Positions 11,322-58,132 of a DNA stretch of 64,000 nucleotides are shown in pieces. The stretch is from Kaistella flava (ex Peng et al. 2021) (lineage in GTDB: Bacteria > Bacteroidota > Bacteroidia > Flavobacteriales > Weeksellaceae). The stretch covers positions 1,984,001 through 2,048,000 of the forward strand of contig NZ_CP040442.1 in assembly GCF_015191005.1 (NCBI RefSeq), in the 5' to 3' direction. The number at the start of each line of letters is the position of its first letter. The stretch's first letter is position 1. A program made the translations under genes and the position numbers. The notes under the pieces are model-generated. The model saw nothing but the letters and a program-made list of their open reading frames with translations, was not told where the DNA came from and did no database searches.

Positions 11322-11422
11322 AAGGGATTGAAGCGGCCTCCTTTTTTTTTGAAATGGCCAATGCGCCGGCAAAAAAAAGATACAGCGGAAAGCCCGACCC
11401 AAACGTTGGGAAAAGCGCCGGC
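11322..11422 (+). repeat. hairpin element, copy R1
   Basis: The gap 11147-11490 holds no gene. It contains GGGATTGAAGCGGCCTCC, a T-run, a short GC-rich middle, an A-run and GATACAGCGGAAAGC. This matches the flanks of elements at 38.6 and 58.1 kb: GATTG-A-GCGGCATCC on one side and GATATAGCGGAAAGC on the other, with the T-run and A-run able to pair. A second small palindrome, GCCGGC, lies inside. Confidence 0.6.
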
Positions 11423-11433
11423 TAGGGTTACGC

Positions 11434-11465
11434 TAAAAAAAATCACCCAAAATAAATTGGGTGAC
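11434..11465 (-). terminator. terminator of the second M13 peptidase gene
   Basis: TCACCCAA and TTGGGTGA (11443-11464) form an 8-bp stem followed on the minus strand by eight T residues, 26 nt past the stop codon. Confidence 0.85.
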
Positions 11466-11490
11466 TATTTAGATATCATTCCAAATTTAT

Positions 11491-13575
11491 TTACCAGATA
11501 ATAACTCTGTCTTCTGGTTTTTTATACAATTTGTCTCCTTCTTTCACATCGAACGCTTTGTAGAAAGCATCTGTGTTGATGAGTGGTCCGAACGCGCGGT
11601 ACAAGCCTGGTGAATGTTCGTCGGTTTTAACTTGATTCAATAAAGCGGCTTCTTTTTGAAGGGTTCTCCAAACGGTTGCCCAACTAAGGAAGAATCTCTG
11701 ATCTTGCGTATAACCGCTAATCTCTCCTGGATTGCCGTGGTCTTTCAAATACATTTGAAGTGCATCATAAGCAATATTCACTCCTCCTAAATCGGCGATA
11801 TTTTCTCCGTTAGTAAAGGTTCCATTGACGAAAGTTCCTTTCACAGGTTCGTATTTGTCGTATTGTGCAGCAAGGGCTTTCGTCGCTTTTTCGAAATTGG
11901 CTTTGTCCGCTGGCGTCCACCAATCTACCAAGTTTCCATCGGCATCAAACTGTGCTCCGGCATCATCAAAACCATGGGTCATTTCGTGACCGATTACGGC
12001 ACCGATTCCACCGAAATTAATCGCAGGATCTGCATTTGGATTAAAGAAAGGCGGCTGTAAAATCGCTGCTGGAAAAACGATTTCGTTATTTACCGGATTA
12101 TAATAAGCGTTCACCGTTTGTGGCGTCATTCCCCACTCTGTACGGTCAACTGGTTTCCCAACTTTCTCCAATTCTCGGTCGTATTGCCAAGTCGTTACGT
12201 TTTGAAGGTTTTTGTACAACGTTCCACCGTCCGCTTCTGAGGTAATAGCCAATTTAGAATAGTCTTTCCACTTGTCTGGATAAGCAACTTTTACCGTAAA
12301 CTTGTTCAGTTTATTCAATGCTTTTTCTTTGGTAACAGGCGACATCCAAGTTAAATCATTAATATGCTCAGCGAAACTTTTTTTCAAATAATCGATCAAC
12401 TCAACCATTTGAGTTTTTGCTTCTGCCGGGAAATATTTCTCTACATATAATTTTCCAAAGGCTTCACCTAAAGTTCCATTGATCAACTCAAATCCTCTTT
12501 TGTCCTGCGCTCTCTGAACATCCTGTCCTCTTAAATATTTGCCATAAAAACTAAATTTCATATCATCTAATTCTTTAGACAAATGACTTGCGTTTCCGGA
12601 GATTAGATTATATTTCATATAATCTTTAATCAAAGGAAGATTTTTCGCATTGATGAATTTATCTAAATTCTGGTAATATTTTAATTCACCGATGATTGCA
12701 ATATCGGTATGAACACCAACTGACGTCAAATATTTTGGCAAGTTGACATTTTTAACCATCTTAGAAAGTTCTGGCATTGTTCGCGGATTGTACTGTAAAG
12801 TAGCATCACGAATTTGCTCATTCGTTAAGTAAGTCTGAGCAATGCTCTTCTCGAAATTAACTATATTTTGTGCGGTTGCCGTTGAATTTTTATAGCCCAA
12901 AACATTCAACATCGAAGCGACATATTCTGTATATTTTGCTAATGTTTCGGTGTTTTTCGGATTTGTTTTTTGGTAATAATCTCTACCTAAACCAAGAGTT
13001 GCATCTCCAAGATAGATTGCATTCATTTTTGAATCTTTCAAATCTGAAAATACATTCCAGGAATAGAACGGATTCTCGCCATTTTTGGTGGCTTCATCTA
13101 AGTAATTCTGTAAATCTGTAAGCGATTTAATTCCATCAATTTTAGCTAAATCAGATTTAATTGGTGAGATTCCATCAGCATTTCTTTTCGCCATATCCAT
13201 GTACGTTGCGTACAAATCCTGGATTTTCTTGCCTTCACTTCCGGGAGCAAATTTGTCATTCAATAAAGAATGAAGAATCGTCATCGAATTATTATCGGTG
13301 TCTTCTGCCAGTTTATTAAAAGAACCCCAAGTCGATTTATCAGCCGGGATTTTTGCGGTTTTCATCCAAGATCCATTTACGAAATCGTAGAAGTCATCTT
13401 GCGGACGAACCGATTTATCAAACGTTGAGAAATCTAATCCATTCTCTGGTGTTTCTTTTACTGTTGTTTCCATAGGCGCAACAGTTGGCTGTGGTGAAGT
13501 GACCACTTTCGAGGCACAAGAATTAAGAGCGACAATTCCAGCAAAAGCCAGAATACCAATGTTTATATTTTTCAT
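11491..13575 (-). CDS. M13 family zinc metallopeptidase (lipoprotein), copy 2
   Basis: A 694-residue paralogue of the neighbouring M13 gene, alignable end to end. The lipobox is ALNSCAS (Cys near residue 20). The zinc site reads HEMTH (His530, Glu531, His534), which fits HExxH, and GENIADLGG carries the third ligand. Compared with copy 1 the most variable part is the region just after the lipobox (residues 22-50) and the HEIGH/HEMTH core. Family members cut short peptides outside the cytoplasm. The tandem arrangement suggests an old duplication with possible split of substrate range; that split is inference. Its own terminator lies at 11434-11465. Confidence 0.95.
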   Translation of the reverse strand: MKNINIGILAFAGIVALNSCASKVVTSPQPTVAPMETTVKETPENGLDFSTFDKSVRPQDDFYDFVNGSWMKTAKIPADKSTWGSFNKLAEDTDNNSMTILHSLLNDKFAPGSEGKKIQDLYATYMDMAKRNADGISPIKSDLAKIDGIKSLTDLQNYLDEATKNGENPFYSWNVFSDLKDSKMNAIYLGDATLGLGRDYYQKTNPKNTETLAKYTEYVASMLNVLGYKNSTATAQNIVNFEKSIAQTYLTNEQIRDATLQYNPRTMPELSKMVKNVNLPKYLTSVGVHTDIAIIGELKYYQNLDKFINAKNLPLIKDYMKYNLISGNASHLSKELDDMKFSFYGKYLRGQDVQRAQDKRGFELINGTLGEAFGKLYVEKYFPAEAKTQMVELIDYLKKSFAEHINDLTWMSPVTKEKALNKLNKFTVKVAYPDKWKDYSKLAITSEADGGTLYKNLQNVTTWQYDRELEKVGKPVDRTEWGMTPQTVNAYYNPVNNEIVFPAAILQPPFFNPNADPAINFGGIGAVIGHEMTHGFDDAGAQFDADGNLVDWWTPADKANFEKATKALAAQYDKYEPVKGTFVNGTFTNGENIADLGGVNIAYDALQMYLKDHGNPGEISGYTQDQRFFLSWATVWRTLQKEAALLNQVKTDEHSPGLYRAFGPLINTDAFYKAFDVKEGDKLYKKPEDRVIIW

Positions 13576-13634
13576 TAAGAACTACTTTATTATTTAGTCT
13601 GAATTTTTTTTTATTTGTTACAACATGATGTAAA

Positions 13635-13662
13635 TAAAAAAGCCATTCTAATTGAATGACTT
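13635..13662 (-). terminator. weak terminator after the DUF2807 gene
   Basis: AGCCATTC and GAATGACT form a short stem with one mismatch and a T-run on the minus strand, 9 nt beyond the stop. Confidence 0.55.
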
Positions 13663-13670
13663 AATCTTAT

Positions 13671-14327
13671 CTATTTAAAAGTGATTTTACCACCAATTAC
13701 ATTTTTGAATTTTCGATCGTCTGGATTGCCATAAACATCGATGATTCCACCTGCTCTGGTCGTTGCATTTACCCATTCCGTCGCAAACACTTCTGCTATT
13801 CCACCAGCATTTGCAGTAACGGTAGCACTTTGAGCATCTAATTTTTGCCCATAAAATTTACCACCTGAATTCACGATGATATCCTGATTGTCTGCTTTTC
13901 CAGAAACTTTAATTTCACCACCAGAATTGGTTTTGATATTCAGTTTTCCGGTGTTAATTCCTACATTTATTTTTGAACCTTCATTGGCAGTTAAACTCAA
14001 CATTTTCGCTTTCACATTTCCGCTTGAATTAATTGAAGAACCTTGGCTCGCCTGAAGATTGTTCAAACTTTGATAATACAATTTCACAGAAGGCGGTGTT
14101 GACTGTAACATTCTGGCAGGTGCCATTCTGATTTTCAGTTCCCCATTTTTATTAACCGTCTCTACGTCATCAGTTTCGGCCTCAAATTTATTTTCATTCG
14201 ATAGAATAAGTTCCACGTTAATTTTGTCATACACTTTCAGCGATGAAAACTCTCCTACATTTCTAGTTACTTGAGCAAACGAATATTGCATCACAACCAT
14301 CATTAAACCTACCGCTATTTTTTTCAT
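13671..14327 (-). CDS. head GIN domain (DUF2807) protein
   Basis: A 218-residue exported protein with a signal peptide ending near SFAQ (residue 19). The mature part is a DUF2807 putative auto-transporter adhesin head (GIN) domain. It is built from short repeated beta turns rich in Gly, Ser and Asn (GSSINSSGN, NEGSKINVG, NSGGEIKVSG, NSGGKFYG, NAGGIAEV), which suggests a right-handed beta-solenoid. Its function in Bacteroidota is unknown, and the adhesin label is a family name, not evidence. It is probably monocistronic and transcribed divergently from the ligase-associated repair operon, with a 194-bp AT-rich gap between the starts. Confidence 0.88.
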   Translation of the reverse strand: MKKIAVGLMMVVMQYSFAQVTRNVGEFSSLKVYDKINVELILSNENKFEAETDDVETVNKNGELKIRMAPARMLQSTPPSVKLYYQSLNNLQASQGSSINSSGNVKAKMLSLTANEGSKINVGINTGKLNIKTNSGGEIKVSGKADNQDIIVNSGGKFYGQKLDAQSATVTANAGGIAEVFATEWVNATTRAGGIIDVYGNPDDRKFKNVIGGKITFK

Positions 14328-14521
14328 AATTTAAAATTTAATTAAGTAAAGGTAACGATTCTAAAGCTTTTTTATTTTGAAATCACTCCTTTTTTTTAGA
14401 GAATAAAAGTTTCAACGGTTGCATCCATTTTCAAGAATAGTAATATAAATGAATATAGAAAGGTGTAGTTTTTGAATATGTTTAAATTATTCTTTGATAA
14501 AAATCATTTTCTTAAGTTTTT

Positions 14522-15541
14522 ATGAAATCAAAAACATTCATCAAATTAACCGACAAAGGAATCTATTGCATTCCGGGCAAATTCTACATTGATCCATGGA
14601 AACCAGTTGATTTGGCTGTGATTTCTCATGGTCACGGAGATCATGCTCGTTGGGGAATGAAAAAATATTTGTGTCATCATTTTACCAAACCTATCTTACA
14701 ACATAGAATTGGTCCAGACATCGAGATTCAAACCATTGGTTATGGTGAAGAAATCAATATTAATGGAGTTAAAGTTTCGATGTTTCCTGCCGGACACATT
14801 ATCGGTTCTGCTCAGATTAAAATGGAATACAAAGGATATGTTATCGTATTTTCAGGAGATTATAAAACGGATGATGACGGATTATCAACTCCTTTTGAAC
14901 TGGTAAAATGCAATGAATTTATCACAGAAAGCACTTTCGGACTTCCCATTTATAATTGGTTAAAACCACAGGAATATTCAGAATTAATGAAATCCTGGGT
15001 TCAACAAAATCGTGAGAACGGAAAAACTTCTGTATTCATCGGCTACTCTTTGGGAAAAGCCCAACGTATTATGAAGTCAATCGAAGGCAGCGGAAAGATT
15101 TTTGTCCATCAATCTATCGGAAAATTAAATGAAGGAATGGAATCAGTGGGAATCCATTTACCAGAATATGAAACACTTAATTTTCAAGAAAGTGTAAAAC
15201 AAACTGATGGTGAAATTGTGATTTTACCGCCGGCTTTATTTGATTCCAATATCATCAAAAAAATCCCAAACCGTGCGACGGCGATTTGTTCCGGTTGGAT
15301 GCAGGTTCGTGGTTCTCGTCGTTGGCGTTCTGCAAATGCAGGATTTGCGATTTCCGATCACGCGGACTGGAATGGATTAATTAATACCGTAAAAGCAACC
15401 GAAGCAGAAAAGGTTTATGTGACTCACGGCCAAACTGCCGTCTTTTCAAAATATTTAAATGAAATCGGAATTAACGCCGTGGAATTAAAAACCATTTTCG
15501 GCGACGAAGAAACCAACGAAAAAGAACTGATAGAAAACTAA
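14522..15541 (+). CDS. ligase-associated DNA damage response exonuclease
   Basis: A 339-residue metallo-beta-lactamase/beta-CASP-type nuclease. The metal motif HGHGDH is at residues about 38-43, followed by AGHIIGSAQI (about 95) and FSGDYK (about 116). The C-terminal SDHADW and VTHGQ motifs are as in CPSF/Artemis-like nucleases. It is the first gene of a four-gene repair set found in many bacteria, thought to process DNA ends for the neighbouring ligase. Its stop codon TAA abuts the ligase ATG with no gap, implying translational coupling. The predicted exonuclease activity comes from family naming; nuclease polarity is not known from sequence. Confidence 0.93.
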   Translation: MKSKTFIKLTDKGIYCIPGKFYIDPWKPVDLAVISHGHGDHARWGMKKYLCHHFTKPILQHRIGPDIEIQTIGYGEEININGVKVSMFPAGHIIGSAQIKMEYKGYVIVFSGDYKTDDDGLSTPFELVKCNEFITESTFGLPIYNWLKPQEYSELMKSWVQQNRENGKTSVFIGYSLGKAQRIMKSIEGSGKIFVHQSIGKLNEGMESVGIHLPEYETLNFQESVKQTDGEIVILPPALFDSNIIKKIPNRATAICSGWMQVRGSRRWRSANAGFAISDHADWNGLINTVKATEAEKVYVTHGQTAVFSKYLNEIGINAVELKTIFGDEETNEKELIEN

Positions 15542-17122
15542 ATGAAAGATTTTGTCCAATTGATTAATGCACTCGACAGCACAAATAAAACCAATGCCAA
15601 AGTAGAGGCAATGGTTACTTATTTGGAAACCGCAAATGATAATGACAAGTTGTGGTTTCTAGCTTTGTTTACAGGCAAACGTCCGAAAAGACCAGTCAAT
15701 ACTGCTCTTTTAAAAAAATGGGCTTTAGAAATTACGCAACTTTCGGAATGGCTTTTTATCGAATCCTATTCTTCCGTCGGTGATTTGGGCGAAACTTTAT
15801 CACTCATTCTTCACAATGCTGAAAATGAAATCGACAAATCTTTAACGCAATGGATGACGGAACTCATTGCCTTGAAAGATCAAACTGATGAAGAAAAGAA
15901 GAAATATGTTTTAGAATCCTGGAACGGTTTAAATCATGTGGAACGTTTCATTTTCAATAAATTAATTGGCGGCAGTTTCCGTATTGGAGTTTCAAAAAAA
16001 TTATTAATTAATGCCCTTTCGAAATTTTCCGGCGTTGATGGAAATATTCTGATGCATTCCATTATGGGGAAATGGAAAATAGAGGAAGAGAATTTCGATG
16101 ATTTGATTCAGGGAACCAACATTAATCCTGATGAATCCAAACCTTATCCATTTTGTTTGGCTTATCCTTTAGAAAAAGAAACGCAGGATTTAGGTGTCCG
16201 CGAAAATTGGCAGGCAGAATTTAAATGGGACGGAATCCGTGGACAGTTTATCAAACGAAATCACGAGATTTTTATTTGGTCGCGAGGTGAAGAATTGGTG
16301 ACCGAGCAGTTTCCCGAAATCGTTTCTGCTTTAAAAGAGGTGGAAGGCAATTTCGTCGTTGATGGAGAAATCCTAGTTGTTAAAGATGATAAAGTTCTTA
16401 ATTTTAATGAACTTCAAAAACGATTAAATCGTAAAACTATTCCTAAAAAAATGTTGGAAGAACTTCCTGTTCATATTTTTGTTTACGATATTTTAGAATT
16501 GGAATTTGAAGATTTAAGAGAAAAACCTTTAGCAGAAAGAAGATTACTTTTAGAAAGTTTAATTGAAAATTCTCCGGTTGAAAGAATTAGAATTTCAGAA
16601 ATTGTTCATTCCGAAAATTGGGAAGGTTTGGCAGAAGTTCGGGAAAATTCAAGAGATAATAATTCTGAAGGTTTAATGTTGAAAGAACTGAATTCGAAAT
16701 ATCACGCCGGCAGAAAAAAAGGCGATTGGTGGAAATGGAAAGTGAATCCATTGACCATTGATGCTGTTTTAATTTATGCTCAAAAAGGTTCTGGTCGTAG
16801 AAGTAATTATTACACCGATTATACTTTTGCTGTAAAAAACGAAGATAAATTGGTGACGATAGCAAAAGCCTATTCCGGATTGACTGACAAAGAAATTATG
16901 GAAGTCAGTAAGTTTGTGAATAAAAATGCCATTGAAAAGTTTGGTCCTGTTCGAACGGTAAAACCCGAATTGGTTTTTGAAATCGCTTTTGAAGGAATTG
17001 GTTTTAGCAGCCGACATAAAAGTGGCGTCGCTTTGAGATTCCCCAGAATTGTTCGTTGGCGACGCGATAAAACCGTAGAAGAAATTGATGAACTTGAAGA
17101 AATTAAAAAATTGATCACCTAA
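15542..17122 (+). CDS. ATP-dependent DNA ligase
   Basis: A 526-residue ATP-dependent ligase of the LigB/LigI-like class, distinct from the NAD-dependent replicative LigA. An N-terminal helical DNA-binding domain covers residues 1-200. The adenylation domain has motif I FKWDGIRG with the nucleophile Lys228, motif III near VDGEILV, and motif IV SEGLMLKE. Motif V is WWKWKV, and the C-terminal OB domain ends in FPRIVRWRRDK. The start follows the exonuclease stop directly. Non-replicative ligases of this set are believed to seal breaks during DNA damage repair. Confidence 0.95.
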   Translation: MKDFVQLINALDSTNKTNAKVEAMVTYLETANDNDKLWFLALFTGKRPKRPVNTALLKKWALEITQLSEWLFIESYSSVGDLGETLSLILHNAENEIDKSLTQWMTELIALKDQTDEEKKKYVLESWNGLNHVERFIFNKLIGGSFRIGVSKKLLINALSKFSGVDGNILMHSIMGKWKIEEENFDDLIQGTNINPDESKPYPFCLAYPLEKETQDLGVRENWQAEFKWDGIRGQFIKRNHEIFIWSRGEELVTEQFPEIVSALKEVEGNFVVDGEILVVKDDKVLNFNELQKRLNRKTIPKKMLEELPVHIFVYDILELEFEDLREKPLAERRLLLESLIENSPVERIRISEIVHSENWEGLAEVRENSRDNNSEGLMLKELNSKYHAGRKKGDWWKWKVNPLTIDAVLIYAQKGSGRRSNYYTDYTFAVKNEDKLVTIAKAYSGLTDKEIMEVSKFVNKNAIEKFGPVRTVKPELVFEIAFEGIGFSSRHKSGVALRFPRIVRWRRDKTVEEIDELEEIKKLIT

Positions 17123-17128
17123 TTTTTT

Positions 17129-17148
17129 AAACCACAAAGTCAAAAAAG
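17129..17148. repeat. CACAAAG word after the ligase gene
   Basis: AAACCACAAAGTC with an A-rich tail starts 7 bp after the ligase stop. It is the reverse-complement form of the GACTTTGTGGTTT words at 58.3-58.6 kb and matches AAACCACAAAGTCACAAAG at 20.4 kb. It sits in the 162-bp gap between ligase and helicase. Confidence 0.5.
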
Positions 17149-17284
17149 TTTATTTCATCTAAAGTTTATCAAAAAAGAAATTGCAGGTACCTTTTAAAAG
17201 ATATTTTCAAATTATAATTTTCATTAGTGACATTCGTATAATCATTTGTGTTATTAATGTTTAAACCAATATTTAAAAATCTGA

Positions 17285-20379: not shown

Positions 20380-20382
20380 ATT

Positions 20383-20729
20383 TGAAACCACAAAGTCACA
20401 AAGAAAAGGGTATCTATTATTTATCAAAGTTCACAAATGATTTTTGAAAATTTCGAGGAGAATTAAAAGTCCACTTAAATTTTAATAAACACATAAGTCA
20501 TATTAGAATCAGTTCTCACTTTGAAAATATTTAGAACACAAAGTTTAAAATCTTTGATTTTTAAAACTGATGTAAACTTTTTGAAGTCATTCCTTTTCTA
20601 AAACTTATGTGACTTATGTGTTTAAAATATTTTTTTTAAAAATCCAACACGTCTCTTATTTTAAAACCTTTGTGACTTTACTTCACCTTTCTATTATTTT
20701 TAAAGGAATCAGTGAATCTTCGATTTGTG
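20383..20729. repeat. nested inverted repeats filling the pdeM-cinA gap
   Basis: This 352-bp gap between converging genes has no ORF of note. It opens with AAACCACAAAGTCACAAAG (20385-20403) and AACACATAAGTCATATTAG (20488-20506). It closes with the inverted words CTTATGTGACTTATGTG (20604-20620), CTTTGTGACTTT (20668-20679) and GATTTGTGGTTTAA next to the cinA stop. The order of words mirrors the right flank of the GxxExxY gene at 3.5 kb. Confidence 0.65.
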
Positions 20730-22185: not shown

Positions 22186-22222
22186 CAGGATAAACTCAGG
22201 CGAAAATGTCCGCCCAAATAAA
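22186..22222 (+). repeat. partial hairpin element, copy R5
   Basis: CAGGATAAACTCAGGCG followed by GTCCGCCCAAATAAA matches the 3' module of the element at 56.6 kb (CAGGATAAATTCAGGCG, then GTCGCCCAAAAAATAAA). The remainder of the element is absent here. Confidence 0.55.
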
Positions 22223-22234: not shown

Positions 22235-22777
22235 TTATTTATCGTGTTCTACCCAAACCAAATTCTCGGTTTTGTATCCTAACTTTTTAGCTTTGTCGAT
22301 AAATCTTTGTCTGTAAGAATCCGGAATTGTTTTCTCACGGGAAAGAATCCACAAATAATCCAGATTGCTGCCCACGACCAAGGCATACTTGTAATCTTCA
22401 TCGATATCGATTACATTATAACCAGCCCAAATCGGTTTAAAAAAAGAAACTTTCAATTGTGCTATGTTCTCATTTTTAACGAATTTGGCTTCTCCGACGC
22501 TTTCTTTCCATTTGTTTTTTACGTAATCATAACCTCTGTTATCGACTTTGATATTGCCGTTATCTTTCATGGAATAAGTCGCAGTGACGTTATTCATATT
22601 TTTCTCAAAACGGTAATCGAAACGGGCGATTTCATACCATTTTCCTAAATATTTTTTAGCATTAAAATTTTGAACTGCGTTTGCACCTTTCGGAACGCCC
22701 ACAGAACATGAGTTTAAAAAGGCGATACCTAAAATCCCAAGCGCAACGGGAATTGCTATTTTCTTTAAATTTTTCAT
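22235..22777 (-). CDS. bacterial lipocalin (Blc-like)
   Basis: A 180-residue lipocalin with a lipoprotein signal (FLNSCS, Cys near residue 24), so it is probably outer-membrane anchored. The lipocalin signature is YLGKWYEIARFDYRFEKN near residues 44-61. The second conserved region is YALVVGSNLDYLWILSREK near 132, and the family's usual length is kept. Blc proteins bind fatty acids or lysophospholipids. It starts 15 bp after the FAD oxidoreductase stop, so the two form one transcript. A role in handling membrane-derived lipid under stress is possible. Confidence 0.93.
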   Translation of the reverse strand: MKNLKKIAIPVALGILGIAFLNSCSVGVPKGANAVQNFNAKKYLGKWYEIARFDYRFEKNMNNVTATYSMKDNGNIKVDNRGYDYVKNKWKESVGEAKFVKNENIAQLKVSFFKPIWAGYNVIDIDEDYKYALVVGSNLDYLWILSREKTIPDSYRQRFIDKAKKLGYKTENLVWVEHDK

Positions 22778-38487: not shown

Positions 38488-38926
38488 ATTTTCTTTCTCT
38501 AAAATGTACCGCGTACAATGTGTGTTTTTATTAATTTTTTAGAAGCATCAAATATTCGCTTCTTCTTTATCTCGGTCCCGCTTTCCACTATATCCCGCCA
38601 AGGCGGGGATGCCGTTTCAATCAGGGCTATTAACTTCTGTCTTTTTTCTTTCGAAGGATTCTTTAATAATACTATTTCACCACTTCGTGGCTTTCTTAAA
38701 TCCTGTTTATTTTCTCTCAAAGGGTTTCACCCTTTGCTAATGATTACGCCACTTCGTGGCTGGAAATACTATGTTACTTTAGATCTAGTAAAAAGAGTTC
38801 GCTGTTGTGCGACAAAGTTTATATTTAATTTTCGGCTAAAGCCAAATTGTGTTCTCTATTTTATAAACGGACTAAAGTCCGTTCCTATTGAATAAAATCA
38901 CTACTGAGTAACAATTTTTAATATTT
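38488..38926. repeat. repeat-rich gap: hairpin element R2 and short hairpin words
   Basis: R2 (38570-38630, minus strand) reads AGCCCTGATTGAAACGGCATCC, then CGCC-TTG-GCGGG, then ATATAGTGGAAAGCGGGACC; the two flanks match copies at 11.3 and 58.1 kb, while the central helix differs but still pairs. Between 38660 and 38890 are several tiny palindromes: CCACTTCGTGG (twice), AAAGGGTTTCACCCTTT, GGCTAAAGCC and AACGGACTAAAGTCCGTT. Open frames here are not credible genes. Confidence 0.65.
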
Positions 38927-44511: not shown

Positions 44512-44608
44512 GATATTGCGACCCGACCTGAATGGAGCTCTTTTTGCGAGGAGGCACGACGAACAAAAAAGCGGGAATGGAGGGCGGAAATAGTCGCCCC
44601 AAAAAAAA
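44512..44608 (+). repeat. hairpin element, copy R3, inside the ABC operon
   Basis: Between permease 2 and the adaptor: GCGACCCGACCTGAATGGAG, CTCTTTTT, a variable middle, AAAAAAGCGGGAATGG, then GGGCGGAAATAGTCGCCCC. It matches the copy at 56.6 kb (GCGACCCGACTTGAGTGGAG, CTCTTTTT, AAAAAAGCGGGAATCC). The T-run and A-run can pair. Just before it are three AATGAGTAAT-like words. Confidence 0.65.
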
Positions 44609-48737: not shown

Positions 48738-48752
48738 TTTTAAAATTTAAAT

Positions 48753-50561: not shown

Positions 50562-50660
50562 ATTTTAAAATAGAAAAAATTTTTGGAATATTCTAAGTTA
50601 ACAAAAAACCGACCAAATCAATTATTTAAAATTGAGCTGAGAAAAGACAAATACAACTCT

Positions 50661-51722
50661 TTATGCTTCAAATGAGAACGTAGTCAAATAATGTAATTCT
50701 GGTTTACTTGCAGCCTTTGCACTTGATTCCGTTTCTTCCAAAGAATAATTTGTATTGATTTCTTTCTTTTGAAATAGAAAAGAGTTATTGGAGTTTTTGT
50801 CAACCACTTCATTGAAGATGTGTTCGATTTCAGAATTCGACAAAGAGGCAAAACTGATATCTTCGAAACCATACATCAAGCGTAGATTGTCGGTATTCTG
50901 AAAATTCTCGTCAACAAAATCCTGGAACTGGTTTTTAGAATCAAAATTCCCGGCCCAAATATTATAGACAAAAGATCTTCTTTTCGGTTTATTTAAAATA
51001 TCCTGATACACGAAGTTTTCACCCAAATAGGCATCCCGAACTTGTGGATCATTTGCCAAATCATGCGGAAGTCCTTCTTTTAAAATTCTACCTTCAAACA
51101 TAATATACGTTTTATGGGTAATCGCTAAAGTCTGTTGAACGTTGTGATCGGTAATTAAAATTCCGATATTTTTATCAACCAAACTTCTAACAATTTTCTG
51201 AATATCTTCCACGGCAATTGGATCAACTCCGGCAAAAGGTTCATCTAACAAAATGAAATTCGGACTGGTTGCAAGACAACGGGCGATTTCAGTTCTTCTT
51301 CTTTCACCACCAGATAATAAATCACCACGGTTTTTTCGAACATGTTGCAAAGAAAACTCTTCGATGAGTTCGTCGCATTTCATCTGCTGTTCTCTCTTTG
51401 AAAGTTTGGTCAATTGTAAAACTCCCAAAATATTATCTTCTACGGACAGCTTTCTAAAAACAGATGCTTCTTGCGCCAAATAGCCGATTCCTTTTTGAGC
51501 ACGACGGTACATCGCATCGCTGGTAATGTCTTTATCGTTTAAGAAAATCTTTCCCGAAGTTGGCTTTACCAAACCTACAGTCATATAGAAAGTAGTGGTT
51601 TTCCCAGCACCGTTTGGACCGAGAAGTCCAACGATTTCACCTTGTCGAACTTCGACTGAAACCCCTTTTACCACTTTTTTCGGGCCGTATTCTTTAATTA
51701 AATTTTCTCCGCGTAGAATCAT
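50661..51722 (-). CDS. lptB: LPS export ABC ATPase LptB with a C-terminal extension
   Basis: Powers transport of lipopolysaccharide from the inner membrane in the Lpt complex. Start chosen at the ATG at 51722 ([13 protein letters not shown]); the longer frame adds 18 residues with no similarity. Walker [11 protein letters not shown] (residues 35-44), signature LSGGERRR (136-143) and Walker [14 protein letters not shown] (156-168) are clear, and the canonical end AYLGENF is at 231-237. A further 113 residues follow (241-353), beginning [22 protein letters not shown] (cited by [12 protein letters not shown]). This tail resembles the Imm22-type immunity fold in its opening, but this has not been aligned. 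A TATATTTG element lies 4 nt before the ATG. Confidence 0.85.
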
Positions 51723-51726
51723 GTAG

Positions 51727-51734
51727 CAAATATA
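51727..51734 (-). promoter_or_regulatory. -7 element directly before the lptB start
   Basis: TATATTTG, four bases, then ATG. It is a perfect TAnnTTTG; the -33 region lacks a clear TTG. Confidence 0.4.
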
Positions 51735-51903
51735 ATAAATTAGATGTAAGGTTGCGTTAAAACCTACCAAACACAACCGCGAAATTGAATGTTAAAAACC
51801 AGGCCAAACACACTAAAATTAAAAGCTATAAATTCATGGAATTATTTTTAAAATCACTCAATTAACATTTCAATATTAATAAAAACAGAAAAATATATTT
51901 GAA

Positions 51904-51920
51904 ATTCGTGCATTCGTGGC
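51904..51920. repeat. ATTCGTGCATTCGTGGC word
   Basis: The word ATTCGTGCATTCGTGGC occurs here, upstream of the sigma factor gene, and again at 63261-63277, with an inverted copy at 63137-63154. It lies in the 290-bp gap between lptB and the second sigma factor gene. Confidence 0.5.
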
Positions 51921-51958
51921 AAAAAATGCTGCGTTTCCTTTGGAATAAAATAGATTTC

Positions 51959-51990
51959 TTTGAGTTTTCGGTTTAAAAAAATTATCTTCG
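51959..51990 (+). promoter_or_regulatory. promoter of the second sigma factor gene
   Basis: TTTG (51959-51962), a 20-nt spacer and TATCTTCG (51983-51990) fit the flavobacterial consensus apart from one base. The start codon TTG is 22 nt downstream. Confidence 0.55.
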
Positions 51991-52012
51991 CTCTTTAGAA
52001 AAATCATCAGAT

Positions 52013-52507
52013 TTGAGTGCCAAAGAAAAAGAATTCGCGAAACTAATAAAAGATAATCAAGGTTTGATTATCAAGGTTTCACGACTTTATACCAATACTT
52101 TGGAAGACGAGCAAGATCTTTTTCAAGAGATTGTGTTACAACTTTGGCGTTCCTACGACTCATTCAAAGGACAATCGAAAATCTCTACTTGGATGTATCG
52201 AGTCGCTTTGAATACTGCAATTACCCTATTCAGAAAAAAAACAAAATCACCTCAAACTGATGAACTGATGGATTACCATCACAGTGATTTTGTAGAAATT
52301 GATGATGAAAAACAACAGCATATTTCGACGCTTTATAAAGTCATCAAAATGCTTCCGAATGTAGAACGTGCGATTGTCACGATGTATCTGGATGATTTAC
52401 CGTACCGCGACATTGCAGAAAACTTAGGAATCACAGAAGTAAATGCGAGAGTGAAAATGAACCGCTTGAAAAAAACTTTAAAACAATTAATGGAAAAGCA
52501 TGCCTGA
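52013..52507 (+). CDS. RNA polymerase sigma factor, ECF-like, TTG start
   Basis: A 164-residue sigma-70 family factor. Region 2 includes DEQDLFQEIVLQLWRSYDSF and STWMYRVALNTAI, and region 4 has LPNVERAIVTMYLDDLPYRDIAENLGITEVNARVKMNRLKK; both are cited by DLFQEIVLQLW and NARVKMNRLKK. No ATG lies in frame before the first Met of region 2, so the TTG at 52013 is the likely start. It overlaps the next gene by 8 bp, which implies translational coupling and suggests that the membrane protein downstream controls the factor. Confidence 0.88.
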   Translation: MSAKEKEFAKLIKDNQGLIIKVSRLYTNTLEDEQDLFQEIVLQLWRSYDSFKGQSKISTWMYRVALNTAITLFRKKTKSPQTDELMDYHHSDFVEIDDEKQQHISTLYKVIKMLPNVERAIVTMYLDDLPYRDIAENLGITEVNARVKMNRLKKTLKQLMEKHA

Positions 52508-53171
52508 ATTTGATTTAGATAATTTCAAAAAAACCTGGCAACAAGAACCTGTTCAGCCAAAATATAATACCAGCGAAATAGAATCGATGCTGAATAAATC
52601 GTCACGTAATTATGTGAAATATATTCTCTGGATTAGTTTAGTAGAATTTATTTTGATTCTCGGAGCCAATTTATATTATACCTTTTTAGGAGAAGACACT
52701 ACTGATTTAATGAGCGTTTTGGGAAAACTCGGCATTGATAATTCAGCTTATTTTGAAAATACGTTAGCACAACTTTATTTCATTTTAAAAATGGTGAGTT
52801 TGGCTATGACTGGAGCTTTTGTTTATTTATTCTACCAAAATTATCGAAAAATCAATATTGAATCCAATCTAAAAAAACTGATTTTACAAATCATTAAATT
52901 CAAAAAAACGGTTCAACTATTTATATTAGCCAATATCGCCTTGGTTGTTTTATTTACCTTGATTTTAGGGATATTCACTTTCTCAGTTTTAGCACAACAA
53001 AACATTGAATTAACGAATCCAACATTGATAGGCTTTATCGCCGGACTAATCCTCACGATGGGAATTAGCGTACTCATGATCTGGATTTATTACCGCATCG
53101 TTTACGGATTCATCCTTAGAAGATTGGGCAAAAATCTGGAACAACTCCAAAATATAGAAGAGGGAAATTAA
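52500..53171 (+). CDS. hypothetical membrane protein cotranscribed with the sigma factor
   Basis: A 223-residue protein with a soluble N-terminal 40 residues (DLDNFKKTWQQEPVQPKY at the start) and four likely transmembrane segments (about residues 44-62, 88-108, 138-160, 170-195). The sigma-factor-adjacent position, with overlapping start, is typical of an anti-sigma or signal-receiver, but I see no zinc-finger or RsgI-like anti-sigma domain. Function is therefore only suggested by position. A terminator overlaps the stop. Confidence 0.72.
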   Translation: MPEFDLDNFKKTWQQEPVQPKYNTSEIESMLNKSSRNYVKYILWISLVEFILILGANLYYTFLGEDTTDLMSVLGKLGIDNSAYFENTLAQLYFILKMVSLAMTGAFVYLFYQNYRKINIESNLKKLILQIIKFKKTVQLFILANIALVVLFTLILGIFTFSVLAQQNIELTNPTLIGFIAGLILTMGISVLMIWIYYRIVYGFILRRLGKNLEQLQNIEEGN

Positions 53172-53193
53172 TTAAAATTCCCCTCTTCTTTTT
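53155..53193 (+). terminator. terminator of the sigma factor operon
   Basis: AAGAGGG-AATT and AATT-CCCCTCTT form a stem that starts in the last codons of the membrane gene, followed by CTTTTTAT. Confidence 0.8.
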
Positions 53194-53214
53194 ATATTCT
53201 TTTAAAGCTAATTG

Positions 53215-54693
53215 CTACAATTCTTTTCTTAAACGCGCCACTGGAATATTGAGTTGCTCACGGTATTTCGCAATCGTACGTCTGGCAATATTGTATCCTT
53301 TTTCTTTCAAAAGTCCAACTAAAGCATCGTCGGTATGTGGCTTTCTCTTGTTCTCACTATCAATAATATCCATCAAATGGGTTTTGATTTCTTTGGTAGA
53401 AACTTCTTCACCGTCATCATTGGTTAATGAATCCGAGAATAGGCTTTTCAAATAAACAATTCCGTTTGGCGTATCAGCATATTTGCTTTTTACCACACGG
53501 GAAATTGTAGAAATATCAAATCCCGTAATATCTGCAACGTCTTTCAAAATCATCGGTTTCAATGATTTGTCATCAGCTGTAATGAAGTATTCTTTTTGCA
53601 ATTGAACAATGGCAGAAATCGTTTGTAGCAAAGTATTCTGACGCTGATTAATCGCATCAATATACCATTTTGCCGCATCTAATTTTTGCTTTATAAAAAG
53701 TGCTGCCTGTTTATGTTCTGCAGATTTTTTATCGTGAGAATAGGTCGTTAAAATATCTTTATATTCATCTGAAACTCTCAAAGATGGAGCGTTTTTACTA
53801 TTTAACGAAGGAATTACATCTACTCCTTTTGCACCATTATCTTTAATGGTAATTAAGAAATCCGGAATAATTTCATTATTAATGGTAATCGTTTGCGTAT
53901 CGAAATTCCCACCAACTTTCGGCGATAATTTCGAAATCACTTCCAAAGCATCTTTTAAATCTTCTTCTTCGATATCATATTTCTGAATAATCTTGTTGTA
54001 ATGCTTATTCGTCAAAGCATCAAACTGATTTCTCAAAATATTTCCGGCTAAACTTACTGCTTTATCGGCACTTACTTTTTTCTCGATTTGTAGTAAAAGA
54101 CATTCTTGTAAACCTCTGGCACCAACTCCCGGCGGATCTAATTTCTGAACGTAGTTTTCTAAGATTTCAGTTACCTTTTCAGTAGTCGTAATCATTCCTT
54201 GCGAGAATGCCAAATCATCAACCAACTGTTTCACTTCTCTGCGAAGATAACCGTCATTATCAAGATTTCCGATAATATATTCTGCAATTTTCAAATCATC
54301 ATCATCAACTTTAGCCAAATATATTTGTTCCAAAAGGTAATCGTACAAGGATTGCCCTTCTGTTAAAAGCGACTGATTATCAAACTCTTCATCGTCCGCA
54401 GAATAATTATTCGCTGAAGATTTGTAAGCTGGTTCGTCATCAAAAATATATTCGTTAACATCAAAATCAGTGTCGATACTTTCGTTGCCTTCTTCTTCAA
54501 ATTTTTCGTCGAGTGAGGAATATTCTTCTTCTTTATTATCTTCCTGCACTTTTTCTAAAGCAGGATTTTCTTCCAGTTCGCGCTCTAATTCCTCCTCAAA
54601 TTCGAGGGTATGAAGTTGAATCAATTTCATCAACTGAATTTGTTGCGGGGCCAATTTCTGGCCGAGTCTCATTTGAAGATTTTGTTTTAACAT
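53215..54693 (-). CDS. rpoN: RNA polymerase sigma-54 factor
   Basis: A 492-residue RpoN. Region I is MLKQNLQMRLGQKLAPQQIQLMKLIQL (cited by QMRLGQKLAPQQIQ and LMKLIQL). An acidic region II (residues about 55-115, many Glu and Asp) follows, then the core-binding domain and the C-terminal RpoN box ARRTIAKYREQL. Members direct activator-dependent transcription at -24/-12 promoters, but no sigma-54 activator is in the window. It starts 75 bp after asnS stop on the same strand and may be cotranscribed with it. Confidence 0.95.
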   Translation of the reverse strand: MLKQNLQMRLGQKLAPQQIQLMKLIQLHTLEFEEELERELEENPALEKVQEDNKEEEYSSLDEKFEEEGNESIDTDFDVNEYIFDDEPAYKSSANNYSADDEEFDNQSLLTEGQSLYDYLLEQIYLAKVDDDDLKIAEYIIGNLDNDGYLRREVKQLVDDLAFSQGMITTTEKVTEILENYVQKLDPPGVGARGLQECLLLQIEKKVSADKAVSLAGNILRNQFDALTNKHYNKIIQKYDIEEEDLKDALEVISKLSPKVGGNFDTQTITINNEIIPDFLITIKDNGAKGVDVIPSLNSKNAPSLRVSDEYKDILTTYSHDKKSAEHKQAALFIKQKLDAAKWYIDAINQRQNTLLQTISAIVQLQKEYFITADDKSLKPMILKDVADITGFDISTISRVVKSKYADTPNGIVYLKSLFSDSLTNDDGEEVSTKEIKTHLMDIIDSENKRKPHTDDALVGLLKEKGYNIARRTIAKYREQLNIPVARLRKEL

Positions 54694-54768
54694 ATTATTT
54701 GCTAATTCTCTTGTGTTTTTATAATTGAATAAGAATACCTCCTAAGTCATAAACTTAGTGAATTTATT

Positions 54769-56214
54769 TTAAAACTCCGCAGTATTAGGCGTTCTTGGGA
54801 AAGGAATTACATCTCTGATGTTGGTCATTCCTGTTACAAAAAGCACCAGTCTTTCTAAACCAAGTCCGAAACCAGCATGTGGCACAGAACCGAATTTTCG
54901 AGTATCCATATACCACCAAAGCTCTTCTTCATCAACATTCATGTCTTTCATCTTGGCTTTCAAAACGTCGAATTTATCTTCTCTCTGAGAACCTCCTATG
55001 ATTTCACCAATTCCTGGGAATAATACATCCATTGCAGCAACCGTTTTTCCATCTTCATTCAATTTCATGTAGAATGCTTTGATCTCTTTTGGATAATCAA
55101 AAAGAACAACCGGACATTCAAAATGTTTTTCTACTAAGAAACGCTCGTGCTCACTTTGTAAATCTGCGCCCCACTCATCAATAGGAAACTGGAATTTACC
55201 TTTTTTATTTTCTTTAGAATTTCTAAGAATCTCAATCGCTTCTGTATAAGAAACACGTTTAAATCTTTTCTGAAGTACATTTTGTAATTTCTCTAACAAA
55301 CCTTCCGAAGCTCTGTCTTTCTCAGGTTTTTGTTTTTGTTCATCTGCAAATCTTTTGTCTAAAAATTCCAGATCATCTTTGCAATTTTCTAAAACATAAT
55401 TGATGACGTATTTTAAGAAATCTTCAGCAAGATCGATATTGTCTTCTAAATTATTAAAAGCTACCTCAGGTTCTACCATCCAGAATTCTGCAAGGTGACG
55501 CGTTGTATTAGAATTCTCCGCACGGAAAGTCGGACCAAAAGTGTAAACTCTTCCCAATCCCATCATTGCAGTTTCCACGTTCAACTGTCCAGAAACTGTT
55601 AAATTCGTTTTCTTACCAAAGAAGTCTTGTGTATAATCAATCGCTCCATTTTCATCACGTGGAATTTCATTCAGATCAAAGTTGGTTACTCCAAACATTT
55701 CCCCAGCTCCTTCTGCATCAGCACCGGTAATAATCGGTGTGTTCATATAGAAAAACTGATTCTGATTAAAGAACTGATGAATCGCAAAACTCACCGAACT
55801 TCTCACTCTAAAAACAGCGCTAAATAAGTTCGTACGGAAACGCAAATGCGCTTGCTCACGAAGAATTTCTAAGGAATGTTTCTTCGGCTGAAGGATTGTT
55901 TTATCTCTTTCTTCTGTAAAGTTATCTCCTAAAATGATAATCTTCTTAGCGATGATTTCGATGTTTTGTCCAGCTCCCTGGCTTTCTACAACTTCACCTA
56001 CAATCTTCAATGACGCAGCGTTGCTGATATTTTTAAGAATATTCTCATCAAATTGTTCAAAGTCAACAACAACCTGTAAATTGTTGATGGTCGAACCGTC
56101 GTTCAAAGCGATAAATCGGTTAGAGCGAAATGCTCTTACCCAACCTTGTACGGTGATGTCATGATGAATTAGTTTTTTATAATCTCCTAATAATTCTTTA
56201 ATGGTCGTTCTCAT
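54769..56214 (-). CDS. asnS: asparagine--tRNA ligase
   Basis: Charges tRNA-Asn in the cytoplasm. The 481-residue class II synthetase has an N-terminal OB-fold anticodon domain ([20 protein letters not shown], cited by [10 protein letters not shown], residues about 19-28). Motif 2 is [10 protein letters not shown] (near residue 228) and motif 3 is [12 protein letters not shown] (near 455). The length is typical of bacterial AsnRS. It is upstream of rpoN with a 75-bp gap. No aspartyl-tRNA amidation gene is in the window. Confidence 0.96.
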
Positions 56215-56335
56215 TGGTAAGTATTCAATTTTTTGTTGGTTCTACGAAAAAGCTAAAGTTCGTAAAAACAGATAATCTATTAATGCAAACTTACTAAAAA
56301 ATTGGCGTAAAATTTGCTCTTAGGTAGAAATTATC

Positions 56336-56363
56336 ACAAAAAAAACGCTTGTTAAAAAGCGTT
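56336..56363 (-). terminator. terminator downstream of the rimM operon
   Basis: AAACGCTT and AAGCGTTT form an 8-bp stem with a 6-nt loop; the minus strand continues with a T8 run. It stands between the rimM gene and asnS. Confidence 0.75.
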
Positions 56364-56714
56364 TAAAATTCATTTACTTGGATACTGGATTTCTTTATCA
56401 ATCTCGATTGGGTTGTTATATTTCTTATTAAATTTTGTCTTTTAGCACTTACTTCCAGTGATTGAAATCTTCACATTTCCATTTCCGTCTTTCGATAGGA
56501 AATTCAGAATAAATTAGGTGAAAATAGTTTAAATTCATTGTTCGAGGATATCTTATCTGCAATATACAAACAAGGTTTATTTTGGGATCCCAGTTGCGAC
56601 CCGACTTGAGTGGAGCTCTTTTTATGGAACGCAGTGGAATAAAAAAGCGGGAATCCTTCGACAAGCTCAGGATAAATTCAGGCGGATGAAGTCGCCCAAA
56701 AAATAAAGAAAAAC
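56364..56714. repeat. rimM-asnS gap with hairpin element R4
   Basis: The 500-bp gap (56215-56714) has no gene. R4 (56586-56706) reads GCGACCCGACTTGAGTGGAG, CTCTTTTTAT, a short middle, ATAAAAAAGCGGGAATCC, TTCGACAAGCTCAGGATAA and then GGCGGATGAAGTCGCCCAAA. It matches R3 at 44.5 kb and, in its last part, R5 at 22.2 kb. The TTTTTAT and ATAAAAA arms are complementary. Confidence 0.65.
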
Positions 56715-57257
56715 TTACTCGTCTTTCTTAGAAGGAATCAAGAAAACGTCCATCAAACCTTCAGGTAAAGCCATTTTAATAAACTTCTCCTCACGGTTTA
56801 ATTCCAGAATCCAATCTCTGATAATCGGAATAACGATATGTTTTTCAGCCAAGGTAAGCACGAAATAATGCTGGCCGGTTTGGTCGTTAATCGTTTCAAT
56901 AATTCCACAAGATTTACCATCTTCTTCGCGGATTTCGAAACCTACAACTTCGTGGTAATAGAATTTATTTCCAGTCAGTTTTGGCAAGCCGGTAAGCGGC
57001 AGGTAAACATCTTTACCAACAACCTGATCCACCAAGGCTTCAGTAGAATTTTTGAAAGAAACAATCAGCGTTTCGCCTTTGCTCCAAGATTGTTTGGCAA
57101 TGAAAAAAGGCACCAATAATCCATTGATATCAACAAATACGGTATCCAATTTAGAGTACATTTCAGGTTGATCAGTATCCAGTTTCAAGAATACATTTCC
57201 GTGTAATCCGTGTCTACGAGTAATTTTCCCTAAAAAATAGCAATCTTCTTTTTTCAT
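56715..57257 (-). CDS. rimM: ribosome maturation factor RimM
   Basis: Assists 30S maturation around ribosomal protein S19. The 180-residue protein has an N-terminal RimM domain (YFLGKITRRHGLHGNVFL, cited by LGKITRRHGLHGNV, residues about 8-21) and a C-terminal PRC-barrel (YYHEVVGFEIREEDGK near 100). In bacteria it is commonly next to rpsP, as here. A perfect TATATTTG element lies four bases before the ATG. Confidence 0.95.
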   Translation of the reverse strand: MKKEDCYFLGKITRRHGLHGNVFLKLDTDQPEMYSKLDTVFVDINGLLVPFFIAKQSWSKGETLIVSFKNSTEALVDQVVGKDVYLPLTGLPKLTGNKFYYHEVVGFEIREEDGKSCGIIETINDQTGQHYFVLTLAEKHIVIPIIRDWILELNREEKFIKMALPEGLMDVFLIPSKKDE

Positions 57258-57261
57258 GATG

Positions 57262-57269
57262 CAAATATA
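57262..57269 (-). promoter_or_regulatory. -7 element directly before the rimM start
   Basis: TATATTTG, four bases (CATC), then ATG. The -33 candidate TTG is 25 nt upstream, slightly too far. Confidence 0.45.
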
Positions 57270-57287
57270 AATGGTTTTAAAATAATA

Positions 57288-57309
57288 GAGACGTCAAAAA
57301 TGACGCCTC
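57288..57309 (-). terminator. hairpin between rpsP and rimM
   Basis: GAGACGTCA and TGACGCCTC form a 9-bp stem with one mismatch and a weak T-run on the minus strand. It may end most rpsP transcripts before rimM or act as an attenuator. Confidence 0.5.
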
Positions 57310-57335
57310 CATAATTCTTCAAGTAAGAAATTTTA

Positions 57336-57938
57336 TTAAGCCTGAGTTTCTTCAGTTCCTTCTGCTTCTGCAGTTGGTTCTTCAGTAACTTCTGGAGCTG
57401 CTTCTTCTACAACTGGTGCATTAGCTGCTTCTTCAGCTGCTTTTGCTTCAGCGATTTTAGCTGCTTCTTCAGCTTTCGCGTCATCAACTAATTTCTGTGC
57501 AGCGTCTAATCTATCTTGGTTTACTTTTACTTCAGCTTCTAAAGCTGCTTTTTTAGCATCTTGTTTAGATTTAACCAAACCTTCTTTTTTACCAACAACT
57601 TGTTGCTCTTTCGCTTCTAACCAAGCAGCAAATTTGCTATCAGCAGTCGCTTGATCGAAAGCACCTTTAGCTACACCACCTTGTAAGTGTCTTTTGTAAA
57701 GAACTCCTTTGTAAGAAAGAATCGCACGAGCTGTATCAGTTGGTTGCGCTCCGTTACCTAACCATTTTACTGCAGCATCAACGTTAAGTTCGATAACCGC
57801 TGGGTTAGTGATAGGATTGTAAGTACCAATTTTTTCGATGAATTTACCATCTCTACTTGCTCTTGCATCGGCAACTACGATGTGGTAGAAAGGTTTTCCT
57901 TTTTTACCGTGTCTTTGTAATCTAATTTTTACTGACAT
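57336..57938 (-). CDS. rpsP: 30S ribosomal protein S16, with C-terminal extension
   Basis: A 200-residue S16. The start ATG at 57938 ([21 protein letters not shown], cited by [13 protein letters not shown]) is where the family begins; the longer frame is upstream sequence. The S16 fold covers the first 80 residues ([21 protein letters not shown], cited by [13 protein letters not shown], then [17 protein letters not shown]). The extension after residue 115 is Ala-, Glu- and Lys-rich, with repeated EEAA and PVVEE motifs, and is probably helical. Such extensions are common in Bacteroidota S16. It is transcribed toward rimM. Confidence 0.96.
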
Positions 57939-57984
57939 AAATGTTTGATTTTGTGGGAACTCGTCCCGATTAATTATAAGGGTG

Positions 57985-58013
57985 CAAAGATAATCAAATT
58001 TTCCGATCAACAA
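57985..58013 (-). promoter_or_regulatory. promoter of rpsP
   Basis: TTG (58011-58013), an 18-nt spacer and TATCTTTG (57985-57992) match the flavobacterial consensus exactly. The leader is about 40 nt. Confidence 0.75.
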
Positions 58014-58056
58014 TTCTAAGAACTGATTATTTGTACTCGAATTCCTATTTTTTTTA

Positions 58057-58132
58057 AGCCGGGAACCTGCTTTTCGCTATATCTTTTATTCCACTAAAGC
58101 TCCATAAAAGGATGCCGCTGCAATCAGGGCTA
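58057..58132 (-). repeat. hairpin element, copy R6
   Basis: On the minus strand: AGCCCTGATTGCAGCGGCATCC, TTTTAT, GGAGCTTTAGTGGA, ATAAAA, then GATATAGCGAAAAGCAGG. TTTTAT and ATAAAA pair. The flanks match R2 at 38.6 kb, where CCGCC and GGCGG take the same place. Confidence 0.65.

Follow-up and report, generated by a model that had tools for sequence, protein, structure and literature searches.

Abundant in Bacteroidota and still unexplained, the Flavo-1 motif (Rfam RF01705) carries the annotation of a small RNA (sRNA). The portions of its description consulted here (PMC2864571) mention neither swaps of modules between copies nor a scarcity of wobble pairs. Dispersed, intergenic elements with a folded strand and a modular mosaic structure are also represented, in the parts of the reports consulted, by repetitive extragenic palindromes (REPs) and bacterial interspersed mosaic elements (BIMEs), which are found with REP-associated tyrosine transposases (RAYTs) (PMC2817692, PMC6006769). 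The relevant part of the second report describes atypical flanking structures of RAYT subclass 2.6 (Bacteroidetes), with copies elsewhere in the genome (PMC6006769). Here, a 64,000-nucleotide stretch of Kaistella flava (contig NZ_CP040442.1, positions 1,984,001 to 2,048,000; referred to as the window) from a genome of 3.72 Mb in one contig (G000) was analyzed for a family of interspersed hairpins. The analysis revealed two related families, Flavo-1 and a second one termed T2, whose copies suggest folded DNA no less than RNA.

The first-pass annotation of the window had described five copies and one partial copy of a single family with a variable middle. Inspection of the sequence confirmed all six at their positions and all of the reported apical helices (TTTTAT/ATAAAA, CCGCC/GGCGG, and TTTTTG/CAAAAA); the single family was corrected to two related but separate ones. 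The copies and their parts are as follows (window coordinates).

11313-11403, + strand: Flavo-1 copy (core), between two M13-peptidase genes (cmscan, RF01705, 47.5 bits)
11318-11323 with 11428-11433: wider outer stem of the 11.3 kb copy, GCGTAA/TTACGC, followed by an A run (by eye)
22186-22222, + strand: T2 remnant, 3' part of the element (by eye against T2 3' ends, no separate model run)
38570-38632, - strand: Flavo-1 copy with the short apical helix CCGCC/GGCGG (cmscan, RF01705, 49.5 bits)
44514-44606, + strand: T2 copy (T2 covariance model R1, G000:2028514-2028606, and pattern match)
44518-44522 with 44593-44597: outer stem of the 44.5 kb T2 copy, GCGAC with GTCGC
56592-56704, + strand: T2 copy just past the rimM stop codon, antisense to rimM (model R1, G000:2040592-2040704, and orthologous copies)
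56656-56670: CTTCGACAAGCTCAG palindrome in the right arm of the 56.6 kb T2 copy
58059-58135, - strand: Flavo-1 copy upstream of rpsP, its A-rich 3' side facing rpsP (cmscan, RF01705, 59.7 bits)

The question raised in the first-pass annotation, Flavo-1 or a separate family, was answered differently for the two groups. The copies at 11.3, 38.6, and 58.1 kb exceed the curated gathering cut-off of Flavo-1 (42 bits) and resemble the described motif in structure and in the presence of many copies per genome. The copies at 44.5 and 56.6 kb gave no Flavo-1 call at the gathering cut-off (cmscan against Rfam). Together with the 22.2 kb remnant, they constitute a sister family, T2, which is claimed by no Rfam model. 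Comparison of seven T2 loci with all Rfam models (E ≤ 1) revealed sub-threshold Flavo-1 matches of 26.1 to 31.6 bits over four T2 elements (L031, L045, L056, and L058), and the T2 element was unmatched by Flavo-1 in the remaining three loci. The Flavo-1 match in T2 locus L032 corresponded to a neighboring Flavo-1 copy, and the L042 element gave one weak match to an unrelated sRNA. T2 is distinguished from Flavo-1 by its own sequence, by scores of the tested elements below the cut-off, and by its occurrence mainly in one family of bacteria. A T2-like family was not found described in the open-licence literature searched. Flavo-1 itself is already known; as far as searched, the T2 family, the rarity of wobble pairs, and the layered mosaics that occur at orthologous sites are new.

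Both families are numerous. With 150 of 1110 candidates scored, the K. flava genome yielded at least 75 matches to Flavo-1 (E ≤ 0.001), of which 57 exceed the cut-off; with 150 of 2036 scored by the T2 covariance model, it yielded at least 38 matches to T2 (E ≤ 1e-6). A pattern search yielded 32 T2 copies, 28 of which recur among the 38 model matches; the reversed pattern, used as a control, yielded none. Five places are common to the Flavo-1 and T2 model lists (coordinates compared by eye). The covariance model detected 26, 48, and 23 T2 copies in three relatives of the genus. Among 89 genomes sampled across the order, T2 was detected in nine, namely, in 7 of the 10 from the same family as K. 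flava and in 2 of the 79 others, with one weak match each. Flavo-1 was detected in 22 of these 89 genomes and, in a sample of 60 genomes from the family, in 46. Among the matches listed, the named T2 genera were Chryseobacterium, Epilithonimonas, Halpernia, Kaistella, Amniculibacterium, and Cloacibacterium, and the other records were assemblies named loosely as Flavobacteriaceae, Flavobacteriales, or Bacteroidetes, plus a single contig of Flavobacterium macrobrachii. In Weeksellaceae, T2 accounts for tens of copies per genome near gene ends that had carried no annotation.

Analysis of the T2 copies revealed the order GCAGCCCGRCYTGARYGGAGCTC, a variable apical helix, AGCGGGARYGGARGRCGGAAATGTCTGCCC, and an A-rich tail. 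The outer stem occurs as GCAGC/GCTGC, GCGAC/GTCGC, GCGCC/GGCGC, or GCGTC/GACGC (L041 is misaligned at this stem in T2 alignment A1). It is followed inward by CCG/CGG, an A.G mismatch, C-G and Y-R pairs, a purine loop, a two-pair helix (AC/GT, GT/AC, AT/AT, or GC/GC), a GGA/GGGA loop, GCT/AGC, a bulged C, and the apical helix. The mismatch is A.G in 81 and G.A in 29 of 111 rows (11 and 12 of 23 in a smaller alignment). In Flavo-1, CCG/CGG and A.G are followed by two pairs, a GNA/GGA loop, and two more pairs, and then by a loop seen as GGC/ATA or GGA/GTA, three pairs, a bulged C, and the apical helix. The order of helices, loops, and bulged C is identical in the two families; in both, the apical helices vary freely and the mismatched loops are near invariant. 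Because of this shared layered plan, the weak model matches, and the hybrid copies described below, T2 and Flavo-1 are probably homologous and may represent two branches of one superfamily of intergenic elements of about 60 to 150 bp. Each element would be a single strand folded into a layered hairpin that runs from an outer stem and a short helix through an A.G mismatch to a further two short helices parted by purine-rich loops, and then to a bulged C and a freely variable apical helix. In several T2 copies, the CTTCGACAAGCTCAG palindrome sits inside the right arm or the apical portion, which gives the impression of one repeat family inserting into another.

The case for the fold rests on covariation. 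The first-pass annotation had held that lack of supported covariation in a larger alignment would refute its view; covariation was supported in all three alignments tested against shuffles. The T2 alignment comprised 111 matches in 100 named loci, a subset of at least 118 found by an exact left-arm pattern, so that the right arm was free. In this alignment, 98.8% of cells were paired, 16 of 21 pairs showed a double change, and the covariation score of 0.308 (shuffled mean, 0.121) was reached by none of 500 shuffles; sliding the arms by one to three columns lowered the pairing to 37 to 54%. The Flavo-1 model set (81 matches, 79 distinct, mostly from the K. flava genome and with hybrids included) was paired in 98.3% of cells, with double changes in 9 of 10 pairs and a score of 0.627 versus 0.204, which none of 500 shuffles reached. 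At the single rimM site, 16 T2 matches from 30 loci were paired in 95.9% of cells, with double changes in nine pairs and a score of 0.195 versus 0.094 (0 of 500). The number of further pair types was no higher than in shuffles for the Flavo-1 set (489 of 500 as high) and the rimM site (492 of 500). The shuffles ignore relatedness and hence do not give probabilities; the sliding control, which keeps relatedness, gave pairing of 18 to 56% over the three alignments, all of which were fitted to the models and thus lean toward structure. Single-sequence folding was unexceptional, with RNA z-scores of -2.7 to +1.3 for 10 sequences: RNAfold returned the covariation structure for the 44.5 kb T2 copy, and the 58.1 and 38.6 kb Flavo-1 copies did not fold into it.

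In functional RNA, a pair often changes by way of G-U, and a G-U on one strand is an A-C on the other. The 111 T2 rows contained 2273 Watson-Crick, 9 G-U, and 8 A-C pairs and 237 double-change cells; the rimM-site T2 alignment contained 307 Watson-Crick, 0 G-U, and 4 A-C pairs; and the Flavo-1 alignment contained 785 Watson-Crick, 9 G-U, and 0 A-C pairs and 172 double-change cells. As a control, 6S-Flavo RNA (RF01685), another structured element of the same genomes, was analyzed in the same genus. It differs from the present elements in having one match per genome (35 of 36 genomes) and more G-U wobble: in 24 distinct rows (from 30 of the 35 matching genomes), 532 Watson-Crick, 19 G-U, and 0 A-C pairs and 34 double-change cells were counted. 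The ratio of double changes to G-U was 34:19 in 6S-Flavo, 172:9 in Flavo-1, and 237:9 in T2 (Fisher p, 4.6e-8 and 5.4e-10, with cells that are not independent events). Wobble is scarce in both families, without a preferred strand in T2 and in favor of the + strand in Flavo-1. This scarcity fits block exchange or folded DNA and is also compatible with an RNA that tolerates little wobble.

These counts bear on the main rival explanation, in which Flavo-1 and T2 act as structured RNA, either as sRNA or as a 3'-end or leader structure protecting or regulating mRNA. We regard this explanation as possible without being probable. The classification of Flavo-1 as sRNA by Rfam argues for it, as do the near-invariant purine loops of Flavo-1 closed by G.A, a pattern typical of RNA, the 9 G-U versus 0 A-C pairs of Flavo-1, and the agreement of RNAfold with covariation for the 44.5 kb copy. 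The rarity of wobble, its lack of strand preference in T2, and the unexceptional single-sequence folding argue against it. Transcriptome data from Flavobacterium, in the portion of the report concerned, point both ways: several structured 5' transcribed regions coincide with Flavo-1 hits, yet hits lie sense or antisense to transcripts alike, and many lie outside transcribed regions (PMC9723704). The first-pass annotation had taken compensatory change as a sign of selection on an RNA or a hairpin. The hairpin family with real compensatory change was borne out; selection on RNA was not established, given the rarity of G-U relative to double changes and the core swaps described next.

Comparison of individual copies revealed mosaics of the two families. 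In three hybrids of the K. flava genome (L080, L087, and L095), which score 45.1 (over the RF01705 cut-off), 40.1, and 32.9 bits (both under it), the outer arms are those of T2 and the inner core is of the Flavo-1 type; in a fourth (L084), a T2-like GAGCTC core lies within the outer arms of Flavo-1. Cores were also swapped at orthologous sites. Among 30 loci of the genus viewed by eye upstream of rpsP, 5 carry a standard Flavo-1 core, 10 carry a TTTGAGCTC/AGCGAG core within the same outer arms, 1 carries a third core, and 14 have no element in the stretch viewed. At the rimM site, L141 has a Flavo-1-type core and the others have a T2 core, and at another orthologous site, L050 has a T2 core and L390 a Flavo-1-type core. 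Two further orthologous pairs, one of them L371 and L095, retain the same core type. Since the inner core is one contiguous stretch, a single exchange carries both of its arms together, and swapping of whole inner modules between copies can thus give compensated arms without selection on RNA. The mosaics suggest that gene conversion takes place between copies. A further inner-core type, GGTTACCCCGC.../GAGGAGTATGAG, was seen in L098 of the K. flava genome, and a similar core was seen in L153, at the rpsP site of a relative.

The 93 T2 copies of three genomes were assigned to 56 site groups, 25 of which are common to at least two genomes, a lower bound because a subset of copies was fetched. This result indicates that T2 is not mainly a recent jumper. 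It also bears on the possibility that the elements are neutral repeats, quasi-palindromes whose arms are matched by template-switch repair and which are of no use to the cell. Such repair accounts for matched arms without G-U and for the freely varying apical helices. However, it would erase mismatched loops, which are near invariant, and the exchange of A.G with G.A at one pair (81 and 29 of 111 T2 rows) and the many T2 copies kept at orthologous sites also speak against neutrality, which we consider improbable.

Analysis of the genomic context placed T2 near gene 3' ends, mostly antisense. The context table comprised 41 of 48 T2 copies of relative G003, 20 of 26 of relative G007, and the 32 pattern copies of the K. 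flava genome. Among the latter, 20 are antisense to codirectional neighbors, 7 are sense, 4 lie between convergent genes, and 1 lies between divergent genes. In the two relatives, a stop codon lies no more than 10 bases from the end of the T2 copy in 23 of 61 cases (15 of 41 in G003 and 8 of 20 in G007). With stop codons this close, the reverse strand of T2 may form part of 3' untranslated regions, a further point in favor of a structured RNA. Intrinsic transcription terminators at gene ends would likewise explain why hairpins occur near stop codons and frequently where the adjacent genes are codirectional or convergent. However, the sequence after the 3' side is A rich, not T rich, the reverse strand has no T run past the hairpin (by eye), and some neighbors have a separate terminator-like hairpin, so that this explanation is very unlikely. 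For Flavo-1, 28 copies are antisense and 15 sense to genes, a gene effect only.

The placement of T2 was also compared with the direction of replication. The GC skew of the K. flava genome switches near 0.85 and 2.74 Mb. In the pattern set of this genome, the T2 + strand lies on the lagging strand in 27 of 32 copies with breakpoints at 0.85 and 2.80 Mb, in 25 of 32 with other breakpoints, and in 28 of 32 in a hand count. With one copy per site group, 42 of the 56 groups in the three genomes lie on the lagging strand (p 0.0002 versus one half), where the breakpoints of G007 were set by hand from a sparse skew and those of G003 are a compromise of two fits. Among the same groups, T2 is antisense in 24 of 25 cases when the codirectional flanking genes are on the leading strand and in 9 of 19 when they are on the lagging strand (p 0.0003), which indicates that gene orientation alone is insufficient; replication strand alone is also insufficient (p 0.001). 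In an analysis that took both breakpoints from a fit to the data under test, in which only the comparison with shuffles counts, 0, 0, 12, and 3 of 200 shuffles were as good for G003, G007, G013, and G000, respectively. The strand bias of T2 is a modest lean toward the lagging strand, short of proof, with gene expression as a possible confounder.

The likeness to REP and BIME elements extends to dispersal, intergenic position, a folded strand, and modular mosaics. The present elements differ in that they are longer, have several purine loops, lack a GT[AG]G foot, and are without a flanked cognate RAYT in the loci tested. A tetranucleotide GT[AG]G at the hairpin foot is absent from the consensus, which begins TTnTAGCCCCG and ATCTGCG (by eye). 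Among the first 32 Y1 loci tested, one T2 only was found, about 1.3 kb off, and no Flavo-1 was found in the 29 of these loci that came from relatives. Low-scoring Y1 matches in the genus numbered 24, of which 20 were newly examined and two more are represented by L103 and L183. The 20 loci contained no Flavo-1 match above 11.1 bits, and T2 occurred in two, each time more than 1.5 kb from the gene. An open reading frame (ORF) with both motifs was detected by script in 12 of the 20 and not in the other 8, and 6 of the 12 have palindromes of their own in the 250-bp flanks, as expected if their REP families differ. The K. flava genome has one broken Y1/RAYT-like gene with a single in-frame stop (L103, 2157.3 to 2160.6 kb), and a Flavo-1 copy lies about 0.6 kb from its domain match.

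The interpretation of Flavo-1 and T2 as the REP elements of a RAYT, notably of subclass 2.6, draws on the atypical structures around genes of that subclass and on the Flavo-1 copy near the broken gene. That copy belongs to a repeated block, the Y1 loci tested are not flanked by Flavo-1 or T2, palindromes of another kind flank 6 of 12 RAYT-like ORFs, and the GT[AG]G foot is lacking; a RAYT as the partner was therefore rejected within the loci tested, and the interpretation as a whole is quite unlikely. Several other palindromes were noted at Y1 loci. L103 and L065 contain GCTGCGCAAAGTCTCCGACTTTGAGC-type repeated palindromes beside the broken Y1 gene and a repeated block with three Flavo-1 copies. 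Open Y1 transposase genes are present in L101 and L102 (148 and 169 amino acids); GCCACGAAGTGGC palindromes, also found near window position 38680, surround L102, and a CCGTATGTGAAACATACGG palindrome is found at L101. The RAYT-like genes L477, L482, L483, L485, L486, and L487 have palindromes of their own (AACCTTGTCAAGGTT..., AAACCTCATAGGTTT..., and GGACAAGTCGCGACTTGTCC), which are probably the cognate REPs. A search for an autonomous parent among the ORFs between neighboring copies (L221, L283, L242, L195, and own and related loci; by eye, without domain search) revealed no transposase, and the recognizable ORFs between neighboring T2 and Flavo-1 copies were ordinary cellular genes.

The best-supported reading combines a folded strand, exchange between copies, and a boundary role at gene ends; we put its chance a little short of even. 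Copies would once have spread through a single-stranded DNA stage, and old, vertically kept copies would now be homogenized by recombination between copies. Gene conversion may shift the whole contiguous inner hairpin, so that both arms stay matched without G-U intermediates. At gene ends, the folded strand may act as a REP-like boundary or 3'-end element served by a putative protein. In a further, more doubtful proposal, Flavo-1 would be a folded-DNA element of a larger superfamily that evolves by swaps of concentric hairpin layers, with compensation in blocks, and the lagging-strand lean of T2 would mark a single-stranded DNA stage involving a yet unrecognized enzyme.

Several observations weigh against the folded-strand reading. 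Flavo-1 has no clear replication effect, with 38 copies on the lagging and 31 on the leading strand (69 classified). The lagging-strand lean of T2 is weaker in fuller lists, with 29 of 42 copies in G000 (38 model matches plus 4 pattern-only copies), 35 to 36 of 48 in G003, and 32 of 48 in a further genome, G114, and lies mostly within the gene-strand bias (p 0.19 for G000, 0.10 and 0.026 for G003, and 0.21 and 0.16 for G114). The 6S-Flavo control is a single family and imperfect: all of its matches are under the family cut-off (best, 53.8 versus 85 bits), and the rows counted also served to predict its structure, which disfavors A-C. The wobble of Flavo-1 is strand asymmetric (binomial p 0.004 for 9 versus 0, mainly from the K. 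flava set), as expected if the + strand folds, RNA included; in 33 distinct best-scoring Flavo-1 rows, mostly from other genomes, no G-U and no A-C were counted, in a best-per-genome choice that is biased to good pairing. No mobilizing enzyme was found among the Y1 loci and the ORFs between copies, and no clean empty site with a target duplication, as looked for in a miniature inverted-repeat transposable element (MITE) or DNA transposon, was found; in the clearest filled and empty pair, L395 and L168, the junction was not alignable. Gene conversion is inferred from the mosaics, and the ORF calls behind the gene neighbors are mechanical.

If it is exchange between DNA copies that maintains the pairs of Flavo-1, covariation, which is normally taken to indicate RNA function, can be misleading in families of dispersed repeats; counts of G-U versus A-C and of double changes would then provide a simple screen for such misleading covariation. 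Conserved T2 sites beside genes such as rpsP-rimM are places where function could be tested. In the window, the Flavo-1 copy upstream of rpsP and the T2 copy just past rimM bracket these genes. The 44.5 kb T2 copy is flanked by a MacB/FtsX-type permease gene and an HlyD-type gene, and the T2 remnant adjoins the 3' end of an ORF at 22235-22777 (- strand).

In a viral collection, five contigs (L303, L304, L305, L307, and L308) had matches to the Flavo-1 model, and there were six pattern matches. The Flavo-1 match in L303 lies 36 bases beyond the stop of a terminase-looking gene (by eye), antisense to it. The sole viral pattern match of T2 (L302) lies in a coding region of an apparently unrelated phage, is probably due to chance, and was set aside. 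The genes that enclose the 11.3 kb Flavo-1 copy are tandem M13-family peptidase genes of 695 and 694 amino acids, located at window positions 9059 to 13575.

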